This document shows, one piece after another, positions 5,627 to 31,965 of a stretch of DNA of 43,434 bases. Every line of letters starts with the position of its first letter. Position 1 is the stretch's first letter. The stretch lies in NCBI RefSeq assembly GCF_000425045.1, contig NZ_AULA01000021.1, positions 1-43,434 of the forward strand, given 5' to 3'. A model generated the notes under the pieces. The model did not search any database. It worked only from the letters and a program-made list of their open reading frames with translations, and had not been told where the DNA came from. Both the position numbers and the translations under genes were made by a program. The DNA comes from Acidaminococcus intestini DSM 21505. GTDB lineage: Bacteria > Bacillota > Negativicutes > Acidaminococcales > Acidaminococcaceae.

Positions 5627-5644
5627 ATGCACATATTGTGAAAG

Positions 5645-5880
5645 GCAAGGAACGGAACAAGTACCATAGGAAATGGCCGCTAGAGAGACCTGCACACCGG
5701 TGCAAGCAGGTTCGGATCCAGTTCTTGTGGGAATGCCTCCGCGAGCTGGATGGCTGAAATAAACAGTAAGCTGTCACGGGGCCCGCCCCGTTACCAAGGA
5801 CGTAAGACTGGGACCTTTCCCAGTGAATGAGAGTGGAACCACGAACCGTCGTCTCTTAGGAGGCGGGGGTTTTCTTTTTT
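5645..5880 (+). promoter_or_regulatory. T-box leader, probably cysteine-specific
   Basis: A T-box transcriptional riboswitch. Stem I contains CTAGAGAG and the distal loop CGGTGCAA. The helix CCATAGG/CTTGTGG is followed by the specifier loop GAATGCC and then TCCG. A stem III (CTGGG/CCCAG), the T-box GAGAGTGGAACCACG (5829-5843) and a terminator with a U-run (to 5880) follow. Alignment with the Trp T-box of this window places the specifier at 5734-5736, TGC (Cys). The alternative is ATG (Met) at 5733-5735. The bulge base after UGG is A, which pairs with a U discriminator as in tRNA-Cys but not with A as in tRNA-Met. One caveat is that the base after the specifier is C rather than the usual purine. 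Confidence 0.8.
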
Positions 5881-8592: not shown

Positions 8593-9780
8593 ATGAATGC
8601 GAACCTAAGCCGGGCCCAACAGGCCTTTAAGGAACTCGTCACCCTGCGACGTGACTTTCATGCCCATCCGGAACTATCTTGGAAAGAAAGGCGGACACAG
8701 CAAAAAATCCTCGAATATCTGGATAAATGGGGGATTCCTGCCGTCGTTTCAACAGGAACCGGGGTGATTGCCACGCTAGAAGGCGCAAGGAACAAGGATG
8801 TCGTCCTTGGCATCAGGGCTGATATTGACGCCCTCCCCCTAACGGAAGCCGCCCATCCGCCTTACGTGTCGCAAAATCAAGGATGCATGCACGCCTGCGG
8901 TCATGATACGCATATTGCCATGCTCCTTGTGACGGCCCGTCTCCTTGCGGAAAAAAAGGATGACCTTCCCCTGACCGTGCGGTTCCTCTTTCAGCCAGCC
9001 GAGGAATATATCGCCGACAGCGGCGCCCTTCATATGAAAGAGGATCCTCTTGTAAAAGCGATTACCCGCATGATTGCCATCCATATCCAAGGCATGCTGC
9101 CCTATGGGATGGCTAATCTTCAGGAAGGACCCATCATGGCGGCGTCCGATACCTTCGATATTTTCATCAAAGGCAGGGGTGGTCATGGGGCCCATCCGGA
9201 AGAAGCCATAGACCCTATAGCGGCTGGTGTTGCCTACTATAATGCTGTCCAGACCTTGGTGAGCAGGGAAACCAAGGCCCTTGATGCTGCCGTCATTGGC
9301 ATTACGTCTTTCCAAAGCGGTGAGACGAGTAATGTCATCCCCGAAACGGCCCGTCTTATGGGAACCTGCCGTACCTTCAGCCCTACTCTTAGGGAACGTT
9401 TCCCTAAGCAGCTGGAACGGCTCGCCCGTGGAATCGGGGAGGCGACACGTACGACCATTGAAGCTTGTTATCATTATGGAACGCCGGTCATGGTGAACGA
9501 TCCGTCTGTCACGCAGACAGGTCTTGCGGCAGCGGCTGCAATCTTTGGGCGGGACAAGGTCATTACGGAAGAACCTCGGATGGGCGGTGAGGATTTTGCC
9601 AAATATGACGCGCCTAAGGCGATGCTTTGCCTAGGTGGTGGGTTTGAGGATGAAAAGAGGCGCAAAGCTCAGCACAACCCTCAGTTTGATATTGATGAAC
9701 GGGCCCTGCCCCTAGGTGTGGCCTATTTTCTGGAGTATGTGGATGAGTATGGCAGAAAGCTTGATGGGACTGCCATCTAG
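8593..9780 (+). CDS. M20D-type amidohydrolase (N-acyl amino acid / aminoacyl hydrolase)
   Basis: A 395-residue zinc amidohydrolase of the M20D group (hippurate hydrolase, N-acetyl-cysteine/DAP deacetylase relatives). Metal-binding motifs are visible: RADIDALPL, MHACGHDTHIAML and PAEE, with GRGGHGAHPEEAIDP in the dimerisation domain and GGEDFAKY near the C-terminus. It cleaves acyl or similar amides from amino acids in the cytoplasm. The position right behind a transporter with a Cys-type T-box suggests it processes an imported sulfur amino-acid derivative, as SndA-type enzymes do in Bacillus. That is inference. The start follows AAAGGAGCC. Confidence 0.85.
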   Translation: MNANLSRAQQAFKELVTLRRDFHAHPELSWKERRTQQKILEYLDKWGIPAVVSTGTGVIATLEGARNKDVVLGIRADIDALPLTEAAHPPYVSQNQGCMHACGHDTHIAMLLVTARLLAEKKDDLPLTVRFLFQPAEEYIADSGALHMKEDPLVKAITRMIAIHIQGMLPYGMANLQEGPIMAASDTFDIFIKGRGGHGAHPEEAIDPIAAGVAYYNAVQTLVSRETKALDAAVIGITSFQSGETSNVIPETARLMGTCRTFSPTLRERFPKQLERLARGIGEATRTTIEACYHYGTPVMVNDPSVTQTGLAAAAAIFGRDKVITEEPRMGGEDFAKYDAPKAMLCLGGGFEDEKRRKAQHNPQFDIDERALPLGVAYFLEYVDEYGRKLDGTAI

Positions 9781-9834
9781 TAGGAGGCGGCCGACTTTCA
9801 TGATATAATAAAAAGAAAAACCAGAGGTGGAATC

Positions 9835-10956
9835 ATGGAAGACCTGAAACTGAAAAACAAGATCGATGCCTATATTGATGCCCATCAAGCGGATTATGTC
9901 AGTCTTCTTTTTGCGATCGCGTCCCTGCCGTCACCGACGGGAAACGAAGCAAAAAAAGCAGCCTTTATCCTCAAGACGTTGAAGGACATGGGGGCAGAGA
10001 CTGCCCATCTCGATGCGGTTGGGAATGTGGTCTATCCCTACCAGCTGGAAAAAGCCAAGGAAAAACCCCTTCTCTACACAGCTCATATGGATACGGTCTT
10101 TGAAGGCGTAGATGAGATTGTGCCTGAAATCGACGGTCATATCATGAAGGCCCCCTCCATCGGCGATAATAGTTCCAATGTGGCGGCCCTCCTTTTTCTC
10201 ATCAGGATGTTCCATGAGCTTAAGCTGCAGGTTCCTGCCATCTTTTGTTTCAACGTTGGGGAGGAAGGCTTGGGCAATCTTCGAGGTGCCCATCATCTGA
10301 TGGAAACCTGGCAGGAGAAGATCCGCGCTTTCATTGCCGTTGATGGAGATAGTGAACGCTTTGTCAATGAAGCCGTCGGCTCCCATCGCTATGCCGTCCA
10401 TGTCGTGACGCCCGGCGGTCATAGCTTTGCCAATTTTGGTGAGAAGAACGCAATTGCAGCAGCAAGTGCCATTATTGAGGAATTCTATGGCCTGCGCGTT
10501 CCCCATACGCCGAAGACAACGTATAACGTGGGTACCATCCAAGGGGGACGCACGGTCAATGCCATTGCGGCGGATGTGGAATTTACCGTCGATATGCGCT
10601 CTGTTTCCATGACGGAACTCCAAAAGTTGGACGCAGCCTTTATGGACATCCTGAAGCGTCATGAGGCAACGGACGTCACTCTTGAAACCCTGCTCCTGGG
10701 CAAGCGCCCCTGTGGTGACGGGCCCCTTCGGGATGAAATCTACGAACGGATCATGCGCATCCGCCGCCGGGAAGGAAAAATGACGAAATGGGCGGCAAGT
10801 TCGACCGATGCCAACATTGCCCTTTCCCGAGGACTGCCGGCCATGGCCTTTGGTGTGGGCCACGAAAAAGGCGTCCATACCTTGGATGAGGAACTGGATC
10901 TATCGAGCCTTGCGCCGGGCCTCAAACAGCTCGCGTCCTTTATCCTTGATATCTAA
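9835..10956 (+). CDS. M20-family peptidase/deacylase
   Basis: A 373-residue zinc hydrolase of the M20 (ArgE/DapE/CPG2-like) group. The first metal ligand is in TAHMDTVFEG. The bridging aspartate is in PSIGDNSSNVAALL, and the catalytic glutamate pair is in NVGEEGLGNLRG. The lid domain contains VTPGGHSFANFG, and SSTDANIALSRGLPAMAFGVG lies near the end. It probably cleaves a peptide or an N-acylated amino acid. It follows the M20D gene by 54 bases; a TATAAT-like box near 9803 may give it its own promoter. The ribosome site is AGAGGTGG. The substrate is unknown. Confidence 0.85.
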   Translation: MEDLKLKNKIDAYIDAHQADYVSLLFAIASLPSPTGNEAKKAAFILKTLKDMGAETAHLDAVGNVVYPYQLEKAKEKPLLYTAHMDTVFEGVDEIVPEIDGHIMKAPSIGDNSSNVAALLFLIRMFHELKLQVPAIFCFNVGEEGLGNLRGAHHLMETWQEKIRAFIAVDGDSERFVNEAVGSHRYAVHVVTPGGHSFANFGEKNAIAAASAIIEEFYGLRVPHTPKTTYNVGTIQGGRTVNAIAADVEFTVDMRSVSMTELQKLDAAFMDILKRHEATDVTLETLLLGKRPCGDGPLRDEIYERIMRIRRREGKMTKWAASSTDANIALSRGLPAMAFGVGHEKGVHTLDEELDLSSLAPGLKQLASFILDI

Positions 10957-22475: not shown

Positions 22476-22560
22476 TTCCCGGGCAGTGTCCTTTTTCCTA
22501 GGAAAATGATACAATAGGCAGTATCGACTTGAGTCAATCTATTTTTTGGGAGGCACCGCC

Positions 22561-24198
22561 ATGAAAAAACGCTACTGGGTCATTTTTTGGCTCGCTGCTG
22601 TACTGCTCTTATACTACCTCAATGGAACCTTGCCCCTGACAGACAGTGTGGAAGGAAACTATGCCCTTACGGCCAAGGAAATGGTTGTAAGTGGAGACTT
22701 TTTATCCCCCCAGATTTATGGCAGGTATTGGTTTGATAAACCAGTTTTTGCCTATTGGATGATTGCCTTGGGCTTTAAACTTTTTGGCTTTACGGAATTT
22801 GGGGCTCGTTTTTTCCCTTCTCTTTATGGTCTTTTGGGCCTTTATCTGGTGACTTGGGGCGGCAGGAAACTCTACGGGGAAAAAGTGGGATTCTTCAGTG
22901 GTGTCTTTCTGCTCATGACGCTTCAATTTTTTACCATTTCGAAGTCGGTCCTTACAGATGGCATGCTCTTCCTATTTTTGAATGGAGCCCTTCTTTTTTA
23001 CTACTTGGGCTATAGCACGCCGCAGAAAAAGTATTACTACGGGATGTATGTCTGCGCAGCCCTAGCCACCCTCACCAAGGGCCCTATCGGTTTTTTGCTT
23101 CCTGGCCTGATTTTCCTGCTCTTTCTTATCTGGCGCCGGGATTTTGCCTCACTTAAATCGGCAAAACTGGGAAGCGGCATCCTTTTGTTTCTTCTTGTAG
23201 GGGCCCCTTGGTATGTGGCCATGGCCATAAAGCATCCAGACTTTCTTTCTGGGTTCATTGGTACGCAGAATTTCCTGCGAGCTACGGTATCGGAGCATCC
23301 TCGGGATAACGTCATTTGGTATTATACGGCAGTGAATCTGTTGAATGCATATGCTTGGATTGGCCTGCTGCCAGGGGCGCTGAAGGCCTATTTGTGGAAG
23401 GATCACCATCTTGTCCGGCCTTCTGCGCGGGAAGGCTACCTGCTGCTCTGGATTGGGACAATCTTTATTTTCTTCCAGTGCATGGCAACGAAATACATTA
23501 CCTATACCTATCCCATCTTGATGCCGCTCAGTATTTTTACGGCCTCTTATTTTGTCGAAAAAGGAGAAGCCCTCTCCCTTAAAGGCGTCCTTGGGGGGAA
23601 CCTCCTTTTTTATGGAGCCTTGGCGGCAGCTGCCTACCATCTGCCGAAACTGGCACCGGGGCTGCTTTCCCATCCAAAGGATATCTTTTACTTTGTCAGC
23701 ATCTTCTTAGGCTGCTTTTTGGTCCTTTCCATCCACCGCTTCCGAGGTAAATCTGTACGGGAAGTGATGACCATGACCATTCTTTTGACTTATCTTTTCT
23801 TCTTCTGCATTACCAAGATGCTGGCCCTGCCGCTTATGAGCGGAGTGACCGGAAAATGGGTGGGACTTTATATCAATACCATGATTCCCGAAAATGTGCC
23901 TATTTACGTACGGGGCGGCGGATATCCAACGTCGACATGGTTCTATACGGATCGGACCCTGACCATGCTTGTTCCAGATGAGCAGACGGAAGCCTTTGCT
24001 CCCAAGGATTACAGCTGGTCGGCCAAGAATATCATGCCATGGACCACGTACAGCAAGGTCCAGAATGTACCTGAAGCGGTCGTGCTCGTTGACACGAATA
24101 CACGGAAAATCAAGACGAAACTCGAAGAAGATTGGCCCGGTGCATGGGAAAAAATCAAGTTCTATGGCCAATGGACCATGATGATCAAACATCGCTAG
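22561..24198 (+). CDS. ArnT/PMT-type membrane glycosyltransferase (GT39/GT83 superfamily)
   Basis: A 545-residue protein with about 12 transmembrane segments. The first periplasmic loop has the acidic catalytic-type motif in LTDSVEGNYALTAKEM, followed by YWFDKPVFAYWM, matching the K-P-P-x-x-Y-W pattern of the family. YLTKGPIGFLLPG-like sequence (TLTKGPIGFLLPG) is also typical. Such enzymes move sugars from polyprenyl phosphate onto lipid A, proteins or other envelope acceptors outside the inner membrane. Acceptor and sugar are unknown. An upstream TTG frame extension is rejected in favour of ATG 22561 behind GGGAGG. It is followed at 12 bases by an unknown gene. Confidence 0.85.
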   Translation: MKKRYWVIFWLAAVLLLYYLNGTLPLTDSVEGNYALTAKEMVVSGDFLSPQIYGRYWFDKPVFAYWMIALGFKLFGFTEFGARFFPSLYGLLGLYLVTWGGRKLYGEKVGFFSGVFLLMTLQFFTISKSVLTDGMLFLFLNGALLFYYLGYSTPQKKYYYGMYVCAALATLTKGPIGFLLPGLIFLLFLIWRRDFASLKSAKLGSGILLFLLVGAPWYVAMAIKHPDFLSGFIGTQNFLRATVSEHPRDNVIWYYTAVNLLNAYAWIGLLPGALKAYLWKDHHLVRPSAREGYLLLWIGTIFIFFQCMATKYITYTYPILMPLSIFTASYFVEKGEALSLKGVLGGNLLFYGALAAAAYHLPKLAPGLLSHPKDIFYFVSIFLGCFLVLSIHRFRGKSVREVMTMTILLTYLFFFCITKMLALPLMSGVTGKWVGLYINTMIPENVPIYVRGGGYPTSTWFYTDRTLTMLVPDEQTEAFAPKDYSWSAKNIMPWTTYSKVQNVPEAVVLVDTNTRKIKTKLEEDWPGAWEKIKFYGQWTMMIKHR

Positions 24199-24209
24199 GA
24201 GGAAATTCC

Positions 24210-24698
24210 ATGGAAGAAAATGACATCAAATCCTATCTTGACAGTCATGAAACCATTCAGTTCCAAGTGACGCGGGAAGAATTGGATGATCCAAAGAAGA
24301 GTGCCCGCTATTTTGCCCTGTTGGATTACTTTGGAGCCCATCCACAGGAAGCTGGGAAATTCTGCAGCCGTCTCCTTTTGGTCTTTCATCCAAGCTGCGG
24401 TACAGACTTATGGGAAAATGAAGCCGCCGCAGCCTTCGTCAAACGGCTTACTGCCTATCCCTATCTTTTCTTTCTTGCCGAAAAGGAAGGGGAGACCTTG
24501 AAGTTCCTGACGGCGCTTAGCTGCCGTAAGGGGGGGCTTGTCGGCGATAATCTTTCCCTTGATAAGGACCTTTTCAATGAACTTCTTCAAAAACAAATGA
24601 AGGGCATCCTTGTCATGAGCCAGGCGGCCCATTTTAGCCCGGAAAATGCCAAGAGCATCATGGACAGCGTCTTCACCTATTTCGGTATGGATAATTAG
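24210..24698 (+). CDS. Conserved-looking hypothetical protein, 162 aa
   Basis: I do not recognise this protein. It is soluble, acidic overall, with no signal peptide or membrane segment. It reads as a mixed alpha/beta domain with a hydrophobic core (FCSRLLLVFHPSC, TAYPYLFFLAEKEG). The start at 24210 follows AGGAGG, 12 bases after the glycosyltransferase stop, so the two are probably co-transcribed. No independent promoter is obvious. Its function may relate to envelope glycosylation only by association. Confidence 0.7.
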   Translation: MEENDIKSYLDSHETIQFQVTREELDDPKKSARYFALLDYFGAHPQEAGKFCSRLLLVFHPSCGTDLWENEAAAAFVKRLTAYPYLFFLAEKEGETLKFLTALSCRKGGLVGDNLSLDKDLFNELLQKQMKGILVMSQAAHFSPENAKSIMDSVFTYFGMDN

Positions 24699-24748
24699 CT
24701 GTCACAAACTGTTCAAATCTGCGCCCTTTCTTTGACAAGAATTTGGGC

Positions 24749-24754
24749 TATACT
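24749..24754 (+). promoter_or_regulatory. -10 element of sRNA copy 1
   Basis: TATACT about seven bases before the predicted RNA start. The properly spaced -35 position (near 24726-24731) is poor. A TTGACA at 24732-24737 is only 11 bases away and so is unlikely to act as a -35. The promoter may need an activator. Confidence 0.45.
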
Positions 24755-24760
24755 TCTTCT

Positions 24761-24865
24761 TGTAGCAGGGATCACCCCTCCTTGCTGCAATCTTCCCCAT
24801 CAAATCATCATAAACAACTTCCTTTCTGGAAAAGGCCTCCGCCGGAATCGGCAGGGGCCTTTTTC
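24761..24865 (+). ncRNA. Twin small RNA, copy 1
   Basis: A predicted small RNA of about 105 nt. Its 5' hairpin has 10-bp arms (24762-24771 with 24779-24788) and a loop of TCACCCC. A single-stranded part with TCTTCCCC and CTTCCTTTC follows, then an intrinsic terminator (24831-24865). From ACCCCTCC to CCTTTC, 53 bases are identical to copy 2 at 25124. The C-rich loop and linker are complementary to Shine-Dalgarno sequences, as in LhrC, csRNA and RsaE-type sRNAs. No start codon lies in the conserved part. Confidence 0.65.
24831..24865 (+). terminator. Terminator of sRNA copy 1
   Basis: AAAGGCCTC and GGGGCCTTT form the outer stem, GCCG and CGGC the inner one, then TTTT. The stem sequence is unrelated to that of copy 2. 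Confidence 0.75.
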
Positions 24866-25089
24866 CGCAGGAGATTTTCTTCCTCTGCGTCCCATATCTT
24901 AGACCGAAATGAATCGAGGAAAACTTCTCTTTTCCCTATTGCTTAATAAAATAAATTATCGTGATAAATTAAATTCAGGAAAGAATGTGAATAATAGGGA
25001 ATGATCTTATTTCATATTGATTTCATAAGGATTTATGTCATCCCTTTTGACTTGCGAGTCAAATTCACAAATAGTTCATTCTTTCTTTA

Positions 25090-25118
25090 TTGCTTTTTAA
25101 GAAAGAATCTTATATACT
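25090..25118 (+). promoter_or_regulatory. Promoter of sRNA copy 2
   Basis: TTGCTT (25090-25095), 17-bp spacer, TATACT (25113-25118). It is unlike the promoter region of copy 1 although the RNA bodies are nearly identical. Confidence 0.6.
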
Positions 25119-25123
25119 GGGCA

Positions 25124-25227
25124 TGTAGCAAGGATTACCCCTCCTTGCTGCAATCTTCCCCATCAAATCATCATAAACAACTTCCTTTCAAGAAAAGGCA
25201 CCCGTTTCCCCGACGGGTGCTTTTTCT
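25124..25227 (+). ncRNA. Twin small RNA, copy 2
   Basis: A predicted small RNA of about 104 nt, paralogous to copy 1. The 5' hairpin arms are GTAGCAAGGA (25125-25134) and TCCTTGCTGC (25142-25151), with a TTACCCC loop. The linker with TCTTCCCC and CTTCCTTTC is identical to copy 1. The terminator stem GCACCCGT/ACGGGTGC is different. Differences from copy 1 in the 5' arm (A to G) keep pairing through G-U. It ends just before a truncated autotransporter gene. Confidence 0.65.
25198..25227 (+). terminator. Terminator of sRNA copy 2
   Basis: Stem GCACCCGT (25198-25205) with ACGGGTGC (25213-25220), then TTTTTCTT. Confidence 0.8.
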
Positions 25228-25263
25228 TGTGTCAGGAAGCTTTTTTTATTTTTCGGCAACGGC

Positions 25264-26460
25264 GTGACCTGGCGCATGACGGGTCCTTCGCCCGTCACAA
25301 CACTCACAGGGAAGGGCGACGTCTACTTTGAAAACGGCGGTGACGCCCTGTGCATCGGCACGTTGGGGAATGATTCCCGGACTTTCTACATGGACCTTGA
25401 CGGCGATGACGGCGTGAGCAGCGACATGCTCTATATCGGCGAAGAACCGGAAGCAGAGCAGAACCTCGTCGTCAAGAACCTTGCTGCGCTCGACAAGCAG
25501 GTGGAAGATGGCGAAGCCGTCCGCTTTGCTACCGCTAGAAATGGCAGAAATGCTTTCCGAGACGGCAAGACCGTGAGCTACACGACAAACGGCATCTACC
25601 GCGACGCCTTCAAAGTCGACTGCCGCGACGTGGCGGACGATCCCCAAGCGACTGACGAATACAACAAGGCCTACAACGGCGACACGTCGGATGGCATCCG
25701 GAAACCGACGACAGCGGACGTGGCTTCGATGTATCTTAGTGGCGAGAATTCGCAGAACGTGTATCTCGTCAAATCCATCGACAGCATCAACGACGGCGCG
25801 AAAACGCCGGCTAAATCCGATGAAATCGTTCTGCGCTACGTGGCGGATCTTGATACCTTCACCAAGCGTTCGGGCAATACGACATACTTCACGCCCGGCG
25901 CGGACCAGGGCGGTTGGATCCGCTTCGGGTACCGCAATCTCGGGGTCGACGGCATTGGCAAAGTAAACGGCAACACGTACGAACTGGGTTACACAAAGGT
26001 CCTGGACGACAAGGAGAACTACAAGCATCGCTTCAGCCTCTCTGGTGCCTGCGGCAAGGAAAGCGGAAGCTGGGAAGGTCTTGGCGGCTATGACTTTACG
26101 GACTCCCAGGGCATCCATGTGTCGGCGGACCATGATTGGAGCCTCATTGGCCGCGTCGGCTTTGACCTTGTAGATGAAATGGATAAGGAAAAGAACACCA
26201 AGCTATACCTGAAAGCAAGTCTTCTCCGCGAATTTATCGACGGTTATGATGTTGTGGCAGAAAGCCTCGCCCAAGGTGGGACTGTGGCTGGCACCTACCG
26301 TACGGCGGGCAGCCGCCGCGGGACTTGGGGGGTCATCGGTCTTGGTTACAGCACGGTCATTGGAAAGAACCAGACCTTCTATGTCGATGCCGAACGGTAT
26401 GTGGGCAACGACTTTAGCCGGACCTACGATATCCGTGCTGGAATTAACTGGAAATTCTAA
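25264..26460 (+). pseudogene. Autotransporter, 5'-truncated (end of passenger plus beta-barrel)
   Basis: About 398 codons of the C-terminal part of a type V autotransporter. The first 200 or so residues resemble a pertactin-like passenger end (TLTGKGDVYFENGGDAL). The rest is a 12-strand-type outer-membrane barrel (WIRFGYRNLG through YDIRAGINWKF) ending in phenylalanine, the usual assembly signal. There is no signal peptide, no ATG and no ribosome site: the frame opens right after sRNA copy 2, and the only start nearby is a GTG in mid-domain. I read it as a remnant, probably unexpressed. A terminator follows. Confidence 0.7.
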
Positions 26461-29707: not shown

Positions 29708-30694
29708 ATGATGCGGGAAAAAGGGTTGGGACGGGTTTATGCAGTCCTTTTCATCCTGCTTTGGCTGATTTTTTTGGGTAGCCTTTTGACGGGCCTGATT
29801 CCTGTCAACGTCCAGCATCTTCTTATGGGCACACTCACGGACGAGGAAAAGACGGTCCTTACCGTCATTCGCCTGCCACGCTTTTGTTATGGGGCTCTCA
29901 TTGGATCGGCCCTGGCAGCAAGCGGAGCCGCGCTTCAGGGAGTTTTTGGCAACCCTCTTGCAGACCCTGGACTTTTAGGTATTTCGAGCGGTGCTTCCCT
30001 GGGTGCTGTGCTTGTCCTTATCCTGAACCTAGCTGTCCTGTCACCGCTCATGGTCCCGTTGGGGGCTTTTATGGGTGCAGCCTTGATCTCTTTTTTTGTT
30101 GCCCTCTTGGGGCGCCGCTCCTTTAAGGCTTCCGTCACGTATCTTCTTTTGGGCGGCGTGGCAGTGAGCTTTTTTTGTGCGGCCCTTGTGTCAGGACTCC
30201 TTAGCTTTGCACCAGCGCCCATCATGCAGCAGTACTTCTTCTGGACCTTAGGGAGCCTCGGTACGGCTTCCCTCAAGGCATGGCCTCTTGCGGGGCTGAT
30301 TCTTGTCCTTTTGCCCGGCGTCTTTATTTGGGGGCGGCCTCTGAATCTCTTATCTCTTGGTGGGGAGCAGGCAGCTGCCCTGGGACTTAATGTTGCGTTT
30401 TGGCGTAAGCTCATCCTTTTCTGGACGGCCCTTTTGACCAGCCTTGCTGTTTGTCTTGGCGGCAATATCGGTTTTGTTGGGCTCATCGTTCCCCATATGG
30501 GACGTTTTTTGAGCGGGGCCGACCACCATCGTCTCCTGCCTTTTGCCGCCCTGATTGGGGCTGTATTCCTCACGCTCTGTGACCTTATGGGGCGATGGAT
30601 CCTTCCCGGCAGCGAGATCCGGACAGGAATCATAACTGCCCTTTTGGGCTCGCCCTATTTTCTCTATCTGCTTCATCAGAAGAAAGGGGCCTGA
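29708..30694 (+). CDS. FecCD-type ABC transporter permease, orphan
   Basis: A 328-residue permease of the BtuC/FhuB/FecCD class (cobalamin, heme, siderophore import), with about nine or ten transmembrane segments. Signatures are GAALQGVFGNPLADPGLLGISSGA and the late GFVGLIVPHMGRFL-GADHHRLLPFAAL. No binding protein or ATPase gene is adjacent, so partners must be encoded elsewhere. The only visible promoter is that of tRNA-Glu, with a strong terminator in between. ATG 29708 follows AAAGGAGGGG; ATG 29711 is also possible. Confidence 0.85.
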   Translation: MMREKGLGRVYAVLFILLWLIFLGSLLTGLIPVNVQHLLMGTLTDEEKTVLTVIRLPRFCYGALIGSALAASGAALQGVFGNPLADPGLLGISSGASLGAVLVLILNLAVLSPLMVPLGAFMGAALISFFVALLGRRSFKASVTYLLLGGVAVSFFCAALVSGLLSFAPAPIMQQYFFWTLGSLGTASLKAWPLAGLILVLLPGVFIWGRPLNLLSLGGEQAAALGLNVAFWRKLILFWTALLTSLAVCLGGNIGFVGLIVPHMGRFLSGADHHRLLPFAALIGAVFLTLCDLMGRWILPGSEIRTGIITALLGSPYFLYLLHQKKGA

Positions 30695-30783: not shown

Positions 30784-31965
30784 ATGATGGAACGTTCAGT
30801 TTGGAAAAATCGTCTGGCATCCGCTGTCTTAGCAGGTGTCATGGGGCTTGGTCTTTCCTTTACAGCCCTTCCCATGCCTAGGGCCCATGCCGATGTGTTA
30901 GGTGCCATCCTTGCTGGGGTACAGGGCGTCGCGATTTATGGACAGGTTGATAAGGCCCTTAATTACTACAATAACACGGAAGAGGGACGGCAGAAACTTT
31001 TCTCGTCGTACAAGGAAAAATATGGCGTCAATTACGATGGTTATTTAAATGGTCAGCTTACGGACATGATGGGGCAGCTGACCAGCGCCATTGGGGCTGT
31101 AGATCCTACTATTCATCAAAAACCTTATCTTTATTTCATCAATAATGATAAATCTTTCAATGCGTTCTGCAGTATGGGCCATGTCATGAGCGTCAATACA
31201 GGGCTTTATTCCATGACGAGCAATCCTGATGAAATTGCCGTTGTCCTGCTTCATGAAATGGGGCATGGACAGAAGAACCATGTGGTCTCAAGTACGCGCA
31301 AAAAGATGCAGGTGGCCGTGGCAGCCGGCGTCGTAAGCGGCGCTGCGGGAAGCGGGATGGCGGATCTGGCCCTTAATATCCTTGTGAACCAGATTGATAA
31401 TGTTCAGATTGGCAAAAGTGATGAATGGGAAGCTGATAACCTGGCACTGACCTATTTGCTTAACTCCAATTATAACCCGGGTGCGTCAGCCGCCATGTGG
31501 CAGCGAGTCATGGACCGGTCAAAGACGTATAAATCCAGTTTTGTTGGTGAAATCTTCTCGCCATCTGATCATCCGACCCATCAGCAGCGCCGCGATAATT
31601 ATGCCAAGCGCCTGACTGATCTGTCCGGCGGCAACGTGACCATCGATGCGGATAAGGGCATGGTCAAAGTAGGGGGAAAGGATTTTGTCGCGCCTCATGC
31701 CTATGGCGATATGTCCGCAAAGGAACGCTCCTATTTTGTCATGGGCAACCTCGCCGCTGCTTTCCTGCATAAACAAAACCTTAAGGACGCTTCTTCTCAA
31801 GGCAGTACCGTATATTTGGGCAATCAGCCCATCATGGTCTCCGTAAATGGCGATCCAAGCGCGGCTGAACTTGCTCAGAAACTCAATGCAATCAAGAGCA
31901 GCAAGGAGAGCAAAGTCGCGTCTCGGGAGCTTAAGCTGCAGAAAAAAGCAGCCCCTAAAAAATAA
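30784..31965 (+). CDS. M48-family secreted zinc metallopeptidase
   Basis: A 393-residue protein with an N-terminal signal peptide (NRLASAVLAGVMGLGLSF, cleavage after AHA near residue 37). The zinc site HEMGH is at about residues 158-162. The third ligand is the glutamate of DEWEADNLALTYL. DHPTHQQRRDNYAK also fits the M48C (LoiP/BepA-like) class of envelope peptidases, which degrade misfolded outer-membrane proteins. The C-terminal 100 residues are less conserved. The start follows TGGAGG; a second ATG at 30787 is equally possible. It is monocistronic. Confidence 0.85.
   Translation: MMERSVWKNRLASAVLAGVMGLGLSFTALPMPRAHADVLGAILAGVQGVAIYGQVDKALNYYNNTEEGRQKLFSSYKEKYGVNYDGYLNGQLTDMMGQLTSAIGAVDPTIHQKPYLYFINNDKSFNAFCSMGHVMSVNTGLYSMTSNPDEIAVVLLHEMGHGQKNHVVSSTRKKMQVAVAAGVVSGAAGSGMADLALNILVNQIDNVQIGKSDEWEADNLALTYLLNSNYNPGASAAMWQRVMDRSKTYKSSFVGEIFSPSDHPTHQQRRDNYAKRLTDLSGGNVTIDADKGMVKVGGKDFVAPHAYGDMSAKERSYFVMGNLAAAFLHKQNLKDASSQGSTVYLGNQPIMVSVNGDPSAAELAQKLNAIKSSKESKVASRELKLQKKAAPKK

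Follow-up and report, generated by a model that had tools for sequence, protein, structure and literature searches.

A probable response regulator-activated, multicopy small RNA family with C-rich sites in the Acidaminococcaceae

In the window analyzed here (the whole stretch of 43,434 nt from contig NZ_AULA01000021.1 of Acidaminococcus intestini DSM 21505), two neighboring loci appear to be paralogous genes of one small RNA family of the Acidaminococcaceae, each of which would give an RNA of ~105 nt. We consider it probable that this family consists of multicopy, C-rich antisense RNAs whose transcription is activated by a response regulator. At the level of sequence, its members have a conserved promoter, a covarying hairpin, an open linker, a terminator with a C-rich loop and a variable number of copies. 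On this basis it is a new RNA family of an already known design, for which we infer the function.

Results

Two related copies in the window

The window contains a direct repeat of 81 nt with 93% identity, and a 53-nt core, ACCCCTCC...CCTTTC, is identical at 24774–24826 and 25137–25189. The original prediction of twin units about 360 bases apart that share an identical 53-base core was exact when the letters were checked, the spacing being 363 nt. An 81-nt query was matched over most of its length at just two places in the genome. In the folds of both copies, an 11-bp hairpin at the 5' end is followed by an open linker and a terminator (Table 1); the energies were -41.0 (copy 1) and -44.7 kcal/mol (copy 2), with z scores of -4.8 and -10.9, respectively, and none of 200 shuffles of either copy was as low as the native fold. 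The folds also recovered the 5' hairpin with an ACCCC-containing loop that had been proposed for both copies. It had further been proposed that differences in the 5' arm preserve pairing, and the one difference found indeed turns an A-U pair into a G.U pair.

Table 1. Elements of the two RNA genes, numbered from the first letter of the window
Element	Position	Strand	Evidence
Operator of copy 1, comprising four half-sites at intervals of 11 bp (GTCACA 24701, TTCA 24712, GCCCTT 24723, GACA 24734)	24701–24737	+	Match to the family promoter pattern (2 mismatches); position profile from 33 distinct promoters; letters
TATACT (-10 box) of copy 1, no -35 box at normal spacing	24749–24754	+	Letters; promoter alignment
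Copy 1 5' hairpin, 11 bp, loop UCACCCC	24761–24789	+	Fold; covariation over 33 sequences
Copy 1 unpaired linker, C-rich site and complement of SD and AUG	24790–24827	+	Fold mostly unpaired; most conserved stretch of the alignment
Intrinsic terminator of copy 1 (loop GAAU, no CCCC)	24828–24865	+	Folds; loop survey
Copy 2 distal operator TTCACA-N5-TTCA, 1 bp farther from the -10 box than in the family	25064–25078	+	Promoter profile; letters
TTGCTT-17-TATACT core promoter of copy 2, in which the proximal half-sites (GCCC, GTCA) are not recognizable	25090–25118	+	Family matrix score <9
Copy 2 5' hairpin, 11 bp, loop UUACCCC	25124–25152	+	Fold; covariation
Copy 2 unpaired linker, letters equal to copy 1	25153–25188	+	Repeat comparison; fold
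Copy 2 intrinsic terminator, loop UCCCC (third C-rich site)	25189–25229	+	Fold; loop survey

Distribution and copy number

A DNA search with copy 2 found the RNA in all 9 Acidaminococcus genomes, in 31 of 59 Acidaminococcaceae genomes and in 12 of 18 genera. The case that had been named as refuting the original prediction, i.e., a recent duplication with no conservation in related genomes, therefore does not apply. A covariance model was built from 33 sequences. In the order, it matched 33 of 63 genomes at E ≤ 0.01, all of them Acidaminococcaceae (those in G016 and G032 were weak), and 42 places across 31 genomes had an E value of 1.2e-9 or better. In the class, 32 of 380 genomes were matched at E ≤ 0.001 by a search that is filtered more strictly above 40 genomes and loses weak matches there; these were the same 31 Acidaminococcaceae genomes and G246 (28.9 bits, no promoter). 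Nothing convincing was found outside the Acidaminococcaceae among the 380 Negativicutes genomes searched with this model. The weak matches in G246 and G032 and the second ones in G003, G018 and G029 came without the promoter and were taken as chance.

A looser linker pattern matched 28 stretches in a collection of named genomes, the titles of which included Acidaminococcus (fermentans, massiliensis, provencensis and uncultured), Phascolarctobacterium (including P. faecium) and other Acidaminococcaceae. The pattern was also present in two MAGs labeled Acholeplasmataceae, which we took as mislabeled. As an exact 25-nt pattern, the window's own core had 0 matches in this collection.

A covariance search in relatives and copy-number variation had been suggested as checks, and both turned out as anticipated, with matches across the family and one to four copies in each of the nine Acidaminococcus genomes. 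Four tandem copies were found in G007 and two unlinked ones in A. provencensis, and G005 had three copies by the model and a fourth detected through its promoter. The four tandem copies of G005 (L118, about 9400–10300, minus strand) show graded divergence, with linkers 3 and 4 changed and their C-rich pieces kept. More generally, the diverged extra copies in G005, G007 and G020 keep the C-rich pieces of the linker while the remaining linker drifts. The two extra copies in G020 are near-identical and located on short contigs; thus, they may be one place assembled twice. A remnant was observed in G016 (L292, from position 101), in which the promoter and the 5' hairpin are intact and a deletion extends from the linker into the terminator.

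Among the 33 aligned copies, the closest relative of each window copy was its sibling (95.5% over hairpin and linker). Thus, the pair looks most simply like a recent duplication of an old gene. Tandem copies and the second, unlinked copy in A. provencensis might also be read as signs of a dispersed repeat or mobile element that has no RNA function, and 6 of 20 fetched 20-kb loci contained none of the nine neighbor proteins searched. However, the other 14 loci had common neighbors, the promoter is conserved and the stem covaries, the genome has only 2 copies, and no matches were found in viral (exact pattern), phage and plasmid collections, so that we regard such an element as extremely unlikely.

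Conserved parts of the RNA

In the 33-sequence alignment of the first hairpin, 90.8% of cells could pair, compared with 83.2% in shuffles. Two-sided changes occurred at 8 of 10 pairs (5.0 in shuffles; 6 of 500 shuffles reached 8), and 30 cells had a two-sided change, compared with 8.8 in shuffles and 1–7 when partners were slid. Further pair types numbered 15 in this alignment, which is not above the 14.8 seen in shuffles. RNAalifold predicted only 7 pairs of the first hairpin and no terminator from the same alignment, in which the terminator stem is variable in length and misaligned.

The most conserved part of the RNA is the linker, whose columns TCATCATAAA are invariant in 33 rows that were collected through that core. 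Part of this conservation comes by selection, because the copies, the alignment and the promoters were all gathered through the conserved core. The linker consensus, CAUCAUAAACARCUUYCC, is unpaired in the folds, and its reverse complement reads as a Shine-Dalgarno (SD) sequence, a spacer and AUG. An open reading frame spans the linker in each of the two window copies. We rejected a coding reading of the linker, since single-base insertions and deletions in relatives break this frame and argue against it.

The terminator stem varies freely, in contrast to its loop. Of the 31 distinct core-bearing copies, 30 have CCCC in this loop, and window copy 1 is the one without it. Thus, the original prediction that the terminator stems are unrelated was right for the stems and overlooked the family-wide loop, which copy 2 (downstream) retains and copy 1 (upstream) has lost. 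Similarly, the C-rich 5' loop stressed in that prediction is present in both window copies, but it is the less conserved site: CCC was found there in 20 of the 31 core-bearing copies and was missing in 11. In seven diverged copies beyond the 31, inspected by eye, the terminator loop had CCCC in three, CCC in two and neither in two. With the linker counted as well, there are three C-rich sites in copy 2 and two in copy 1. There is good support for the view that the RNA itself carries the function, as promoter, hairpin, linker and terminator loop are kept in 12 of 18 genera.

Neighboring genes

In Acidaminococcus, the RNA is usually found 3' of two genes, one ArnT-like and the other a small conserved ORF. 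In the window, the former (22546–24198, plus strand) encodes an ArnT-like glycosyltransferase (Pfam PMT_2) that is near the RNA in several genera; against the NCBIfam model for lipid IV(A) aminoarabinosyltransferase, this protein scored far below the cut-off. The latter (24210–24698, plus strand) encodes a 162-aa protein beside the RNA, which is conserved in Acidaminococcus, has more distant counterparts in some other genera and had no Pfam or NCBIfam match. Other genera have parts of a set near the RNA (Lgt, c5, YafY and ArnT, together with a kinase and a regulator in P. faecium). Elsewhere in the window, a T-box leader at 5639–5859 (plus strand) was barely at the Rfam gathering score (94 versus 93 bits).

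An ORF for an autotransporter beta-domain is located at 25264–26460 (plus strand); it starts with GTG, neither a passenger nor a signal part could be seen, and it looks like a gene remnant. It lies on the same strand as the RNA and begins 34 bp past the terminator stem of copy 2, as might be expected if the RNA acted in cis on the gene that follows, as a leader or an attenuator. We find this very unlikely, given that the terminator is complete and strong and that the downstream gene is not constant, its kind and strand varying between relatives.

Promoter and operator

We aligned 33 distinct promoters on the -10 box, and none had to be dropped for want of TATACT. The profile contained conserved blocks at -48 (TTCACA), -37 (TTCA), -26 (GCCCTT) and -15 (GTCA), i.e., direct half-sites repeated every 11 bp. 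A -35 box resembling TTGACA was absent at the usual spacing. The resulting family consensus is TTCACA-N5-TTCA ... GCCCTT ... GTCA-N11-TATACT. Direct half-sites that are one helical turn apart and replace the -35 box are the signature of response regulators of the OmpR/PhoB family, and this arrangement is what the 33 promoters have.

When the nine Acidaminococcus genomes were searched with the 37-nt four-block pattern (up to 3 mismatches), all 12 matches lay at copies of this RNA, and a reversed control pattern had 0 matches in these genomes. The 12 represent 12 of 17 copies in the genus, so that not all copies keep the operator at this threshold. In 464,824 bases of neighboring loci, 33 places had a weight matrix score above 9, all of them before RNA copies (some seen via two loci), and three shuffles had no such place. 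Two training promoters scored below 9 with their own matrix, namely that of copy 2 in the window and that of the second copy in A. provencensis. It should be noted that the matrix was built from these same promoters and thus shows specificity, not independent discovery.

In the window, both copies have TATACT and a common distal TTCACA-N5-TTCA element (12 of 15 letters equal; 0 of 10000 letter shuffles as good), and the promoter regions are thus not unrelated, contrary to the original prediction. In the remainder they do differ (19 of 54 letters equal when aligned on the -10 box). It had also been suggested that different promoters make the siblings respond to different conditions. The proximal parts differ indeed, and copy 2 has a -35-like box; however, since the distal operator is common to both copies, this suggestion is supported in part only. 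Copy 1 has the full operator and lacks a CCCC terminator loop, whereas copy 2 has three C-rich sites and a reworked promoter. Thus, it seems that the input and the output of the siblings are both diverging.

Candidate regulators

In P. faecium, an OmpR-type regulator is encoded within about 5 kb of the RNA, together with a histidine kinase and an ArnT-like protein. The best matches to this regulator had 40–42% identity in the nine Acidaminococcus genomes and 37–38% in the RNA-bearing G020, G021 and G025, and because of this low identity we rejected it as the general activator.

We then considered the distribution of regulators with the PF00486 domain. There were 66 places in 17 genomes, 64 of which were taken and 62 placed in a tree; L220 and L233 had no usable ORF, and the ArnT-side gene of P. 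faecium and a weak G050 match were not taken. A WalR/MtrA-like group (a label from NCBIfam, with matches below the equivalog cut-offs) was the sole group present in all 9 RNA-bearing genomes of the tree, and it was also present in 7 of 8 genomes without the RNA. The gene distribution is thus only suggestive of this group as the activator. The activator might instead be a PhoB-like regulator responding to phosphate starvation, with everything else in our preferred reading unchanged. A PhoB-like orthologue occurred in 7 of the 9 RNA-bearing genomes in the tree, the other two hold different regulators that look PhoB-like by eye, and the TTGTCA-N11-TATAxT geometry is reportedly that of E. coli phoA. 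However, only the WalR/MtrA-like group reaches 9 of 9, and we put the PhoB-like regulator forward tentatively, as possible rather than probable.

Target searches and Hfq

We searched for targets with the 18-nt linker complement, allowing wobble pairs (up to 3 mismatches, among the matches listed), and with an exact 11-mer, inspected 20 hand-picked stretches and the other non-RNA 11-mer matches, and calculated duplex energies for 188 initiation regions near the RNA; these searches by linker complement and duplex energy found no conserved target. The exact 11-nt complement of the best-conserved part of the linker occurred 16 times outside RNA genes in the genus, and its reversed control also occurred 16 times. 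Linker duplex energies over the 188 regions had a mean of -12.8, compared with -12.1 (sd 0.7) for 20 shuffled linkers, i.e., no difference. Short C-rich seeds of the LhrC type are invisible to such searches, so that this result is an absence of evidence.

The start region of clpB contained the exact 11-mer across the start codon in G000 (L254), G005 and G007 and lacked it in the other six Acidaminococcus genomes; outside the genus, the clpB start could be placed in 7 of 21 loci, and none of the 7 had the 11-mer. We regard clpB as a weak candidate target. Several 11-mer matches in initiation regions resemble amino-acid or dicarboxylate transporters (named by eye), which is a lead only. Against the linker, the initiation regions of a permease-like protein (start near 29711) and a small secreted-looking protein (start near 30784), both on the plus strand and named by eye, ranked first and ninth of the 188 regions. 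Of the 59 family genomes, 55 encode Hfq; G000 and every one of the 31 RNA-bearing genomes are among these.

Discussion

Proposed mechanism

We propose that a response regulator of the OmpR/PhoB family would bind the 11-bp-spaced half-sites and recruit polymerase in place of a -35 box. The RNA would then pair, via its C-rich sites in the 5' loop, linker and terminator loop and via the SD/AUG-complementary linker, with the initiation regions of trans-encoded mRNAs. Such pairing could block ribosome binding, possibly with the participation of Hfq.

Alternatively, the RNA might act mainly by binding a protein, as a sponge for Hfq or another RNA-binding protein, and not by pairing with mRNAs. Consistent with this, the strongest conservation lies in the A-rich unstructured linker, no conserved target was found, and in the nine Acidaminococcus genomes the promoter pattern was confined to the RNA genes, as it is in dedicated sponge circuits such as GacA-Rsm. 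On the other hand, the surveyed loops contained no GGA, which argues against a CsrA-type decoy, the conserved parts are the complements of SD and AUG, and the C-rich pieces are kept in diverged copies. A sponge is therefore improbable in our opinion, and an antisense RNA is the reading that we prefer.

In the nine genomes of the genus, the four-half-site operator (up to 3 mismatches) was found only before these RNA genes. This is the basis for a further idea, which we consider rather doubtful, that a two-component system of these Firmicutes with an outer membrane uses the RNA array as its main direct output and that copy gain, linker drift and operator loss (e.g., in the species of the window) retune the circuit. 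If true, this would be a wiring like that of GacA-Rsm made with an antisense RNA like LhrC or the csRNAs.

An RNA found across the family with a precisely spaced promoter offers a handle on post-transcriptional regulation in common gut bacteria, and natural arrays of one to four copies at differing stages of divergence provide a ready test of specialization among sibling small RNAs.

Comparison with known small RNAs

In the region of the twin copies, no Rfam family was detected at its gathering score. Relaxed thresholds gave 25 matches, all under the cut-offs of their families. RsaE was absent among them, and the best LhrC (RF00616) match had 25.1 bits (E 0.18) versus a gathering score of 110; it covered 25059–25158, began in the promoter and was out of register. 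Our literature search, which covered open-licence papers, found no description of such a small RNA pair, or of any small RNA of this type, in Negativicutes.

Negativicutes, which have an outer membrane, are relatives of Gram-positive bacteria, and the host of this RNA thus differs from that of LhrC in its bacterial class and its envelope. As described in PMC4132741, LhrC1-5 of Listeria monocytogenes are multicopy small RNAs whose transcription requires a response regulator acting upstream of the promoter. The family described here is likewise multicopy, with C-rich sites and a promoter predicted to depend on a response regulator. With regard to the dependence of LhrC on LisR, the feature seen in the present family is the direct-repeat operator. 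All C-rich sites expected by analogy with LhrC were found in copy 2, and copy 1 lacks the one in the terminator loop. The RNA differs from LhrC in its four 11-bp-spaced half-sites, in its SD- and AUG-complementary linker and in the 5' C-rich loop, which is missing in part of the family.

Unpaired C-rich sites are also found in the RsaE-type small RNAs of Staphylococcus, which carry UCCC motifs and are expected to pair with SD sequences; the C-rich unpaired sites of the present RNA would be expected to do the same. Such pairing of RsaE-type RNAs is also cited in PMC4132741.

The csRNAs of streptococci, which belong to the CiaRH regulon, occur in several copies and have two stem-loops with a linker between them that is unpaired and complementary to both SD and AUG, according to PMC3091779. 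The same paper describes their promoters as containing a direct repeat with an 11-bp period that ends ten bases before the -10 box. An unpaired linker between two stem-loops that is complementary to SD and AUG was found in our RNA as well. However, its operator has the four half-sites TTCAC/TTCA/GCCC/GTCA instead of TTTAAG-N5-TTTAAG, and a CiaR box of the latter form ten bases before the -10 box is not present in the consensus of the 33 promoters.

The likeness to LhrC and the csRNAs that had been noted in the original prediction holds and is closer than stated there, extending to three C-rich sites, the presence of several copies, a promoter with 11-bp repeats and the complement of SD and AUG. 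A multicopy, C-rich design of the response regulator type would thus be seen outside Listeria and streptococci. On the tests made, the RNA of the Acidaminococcaceae appears to resemble LhrC and the csRNAs most and to be a member of neither family.
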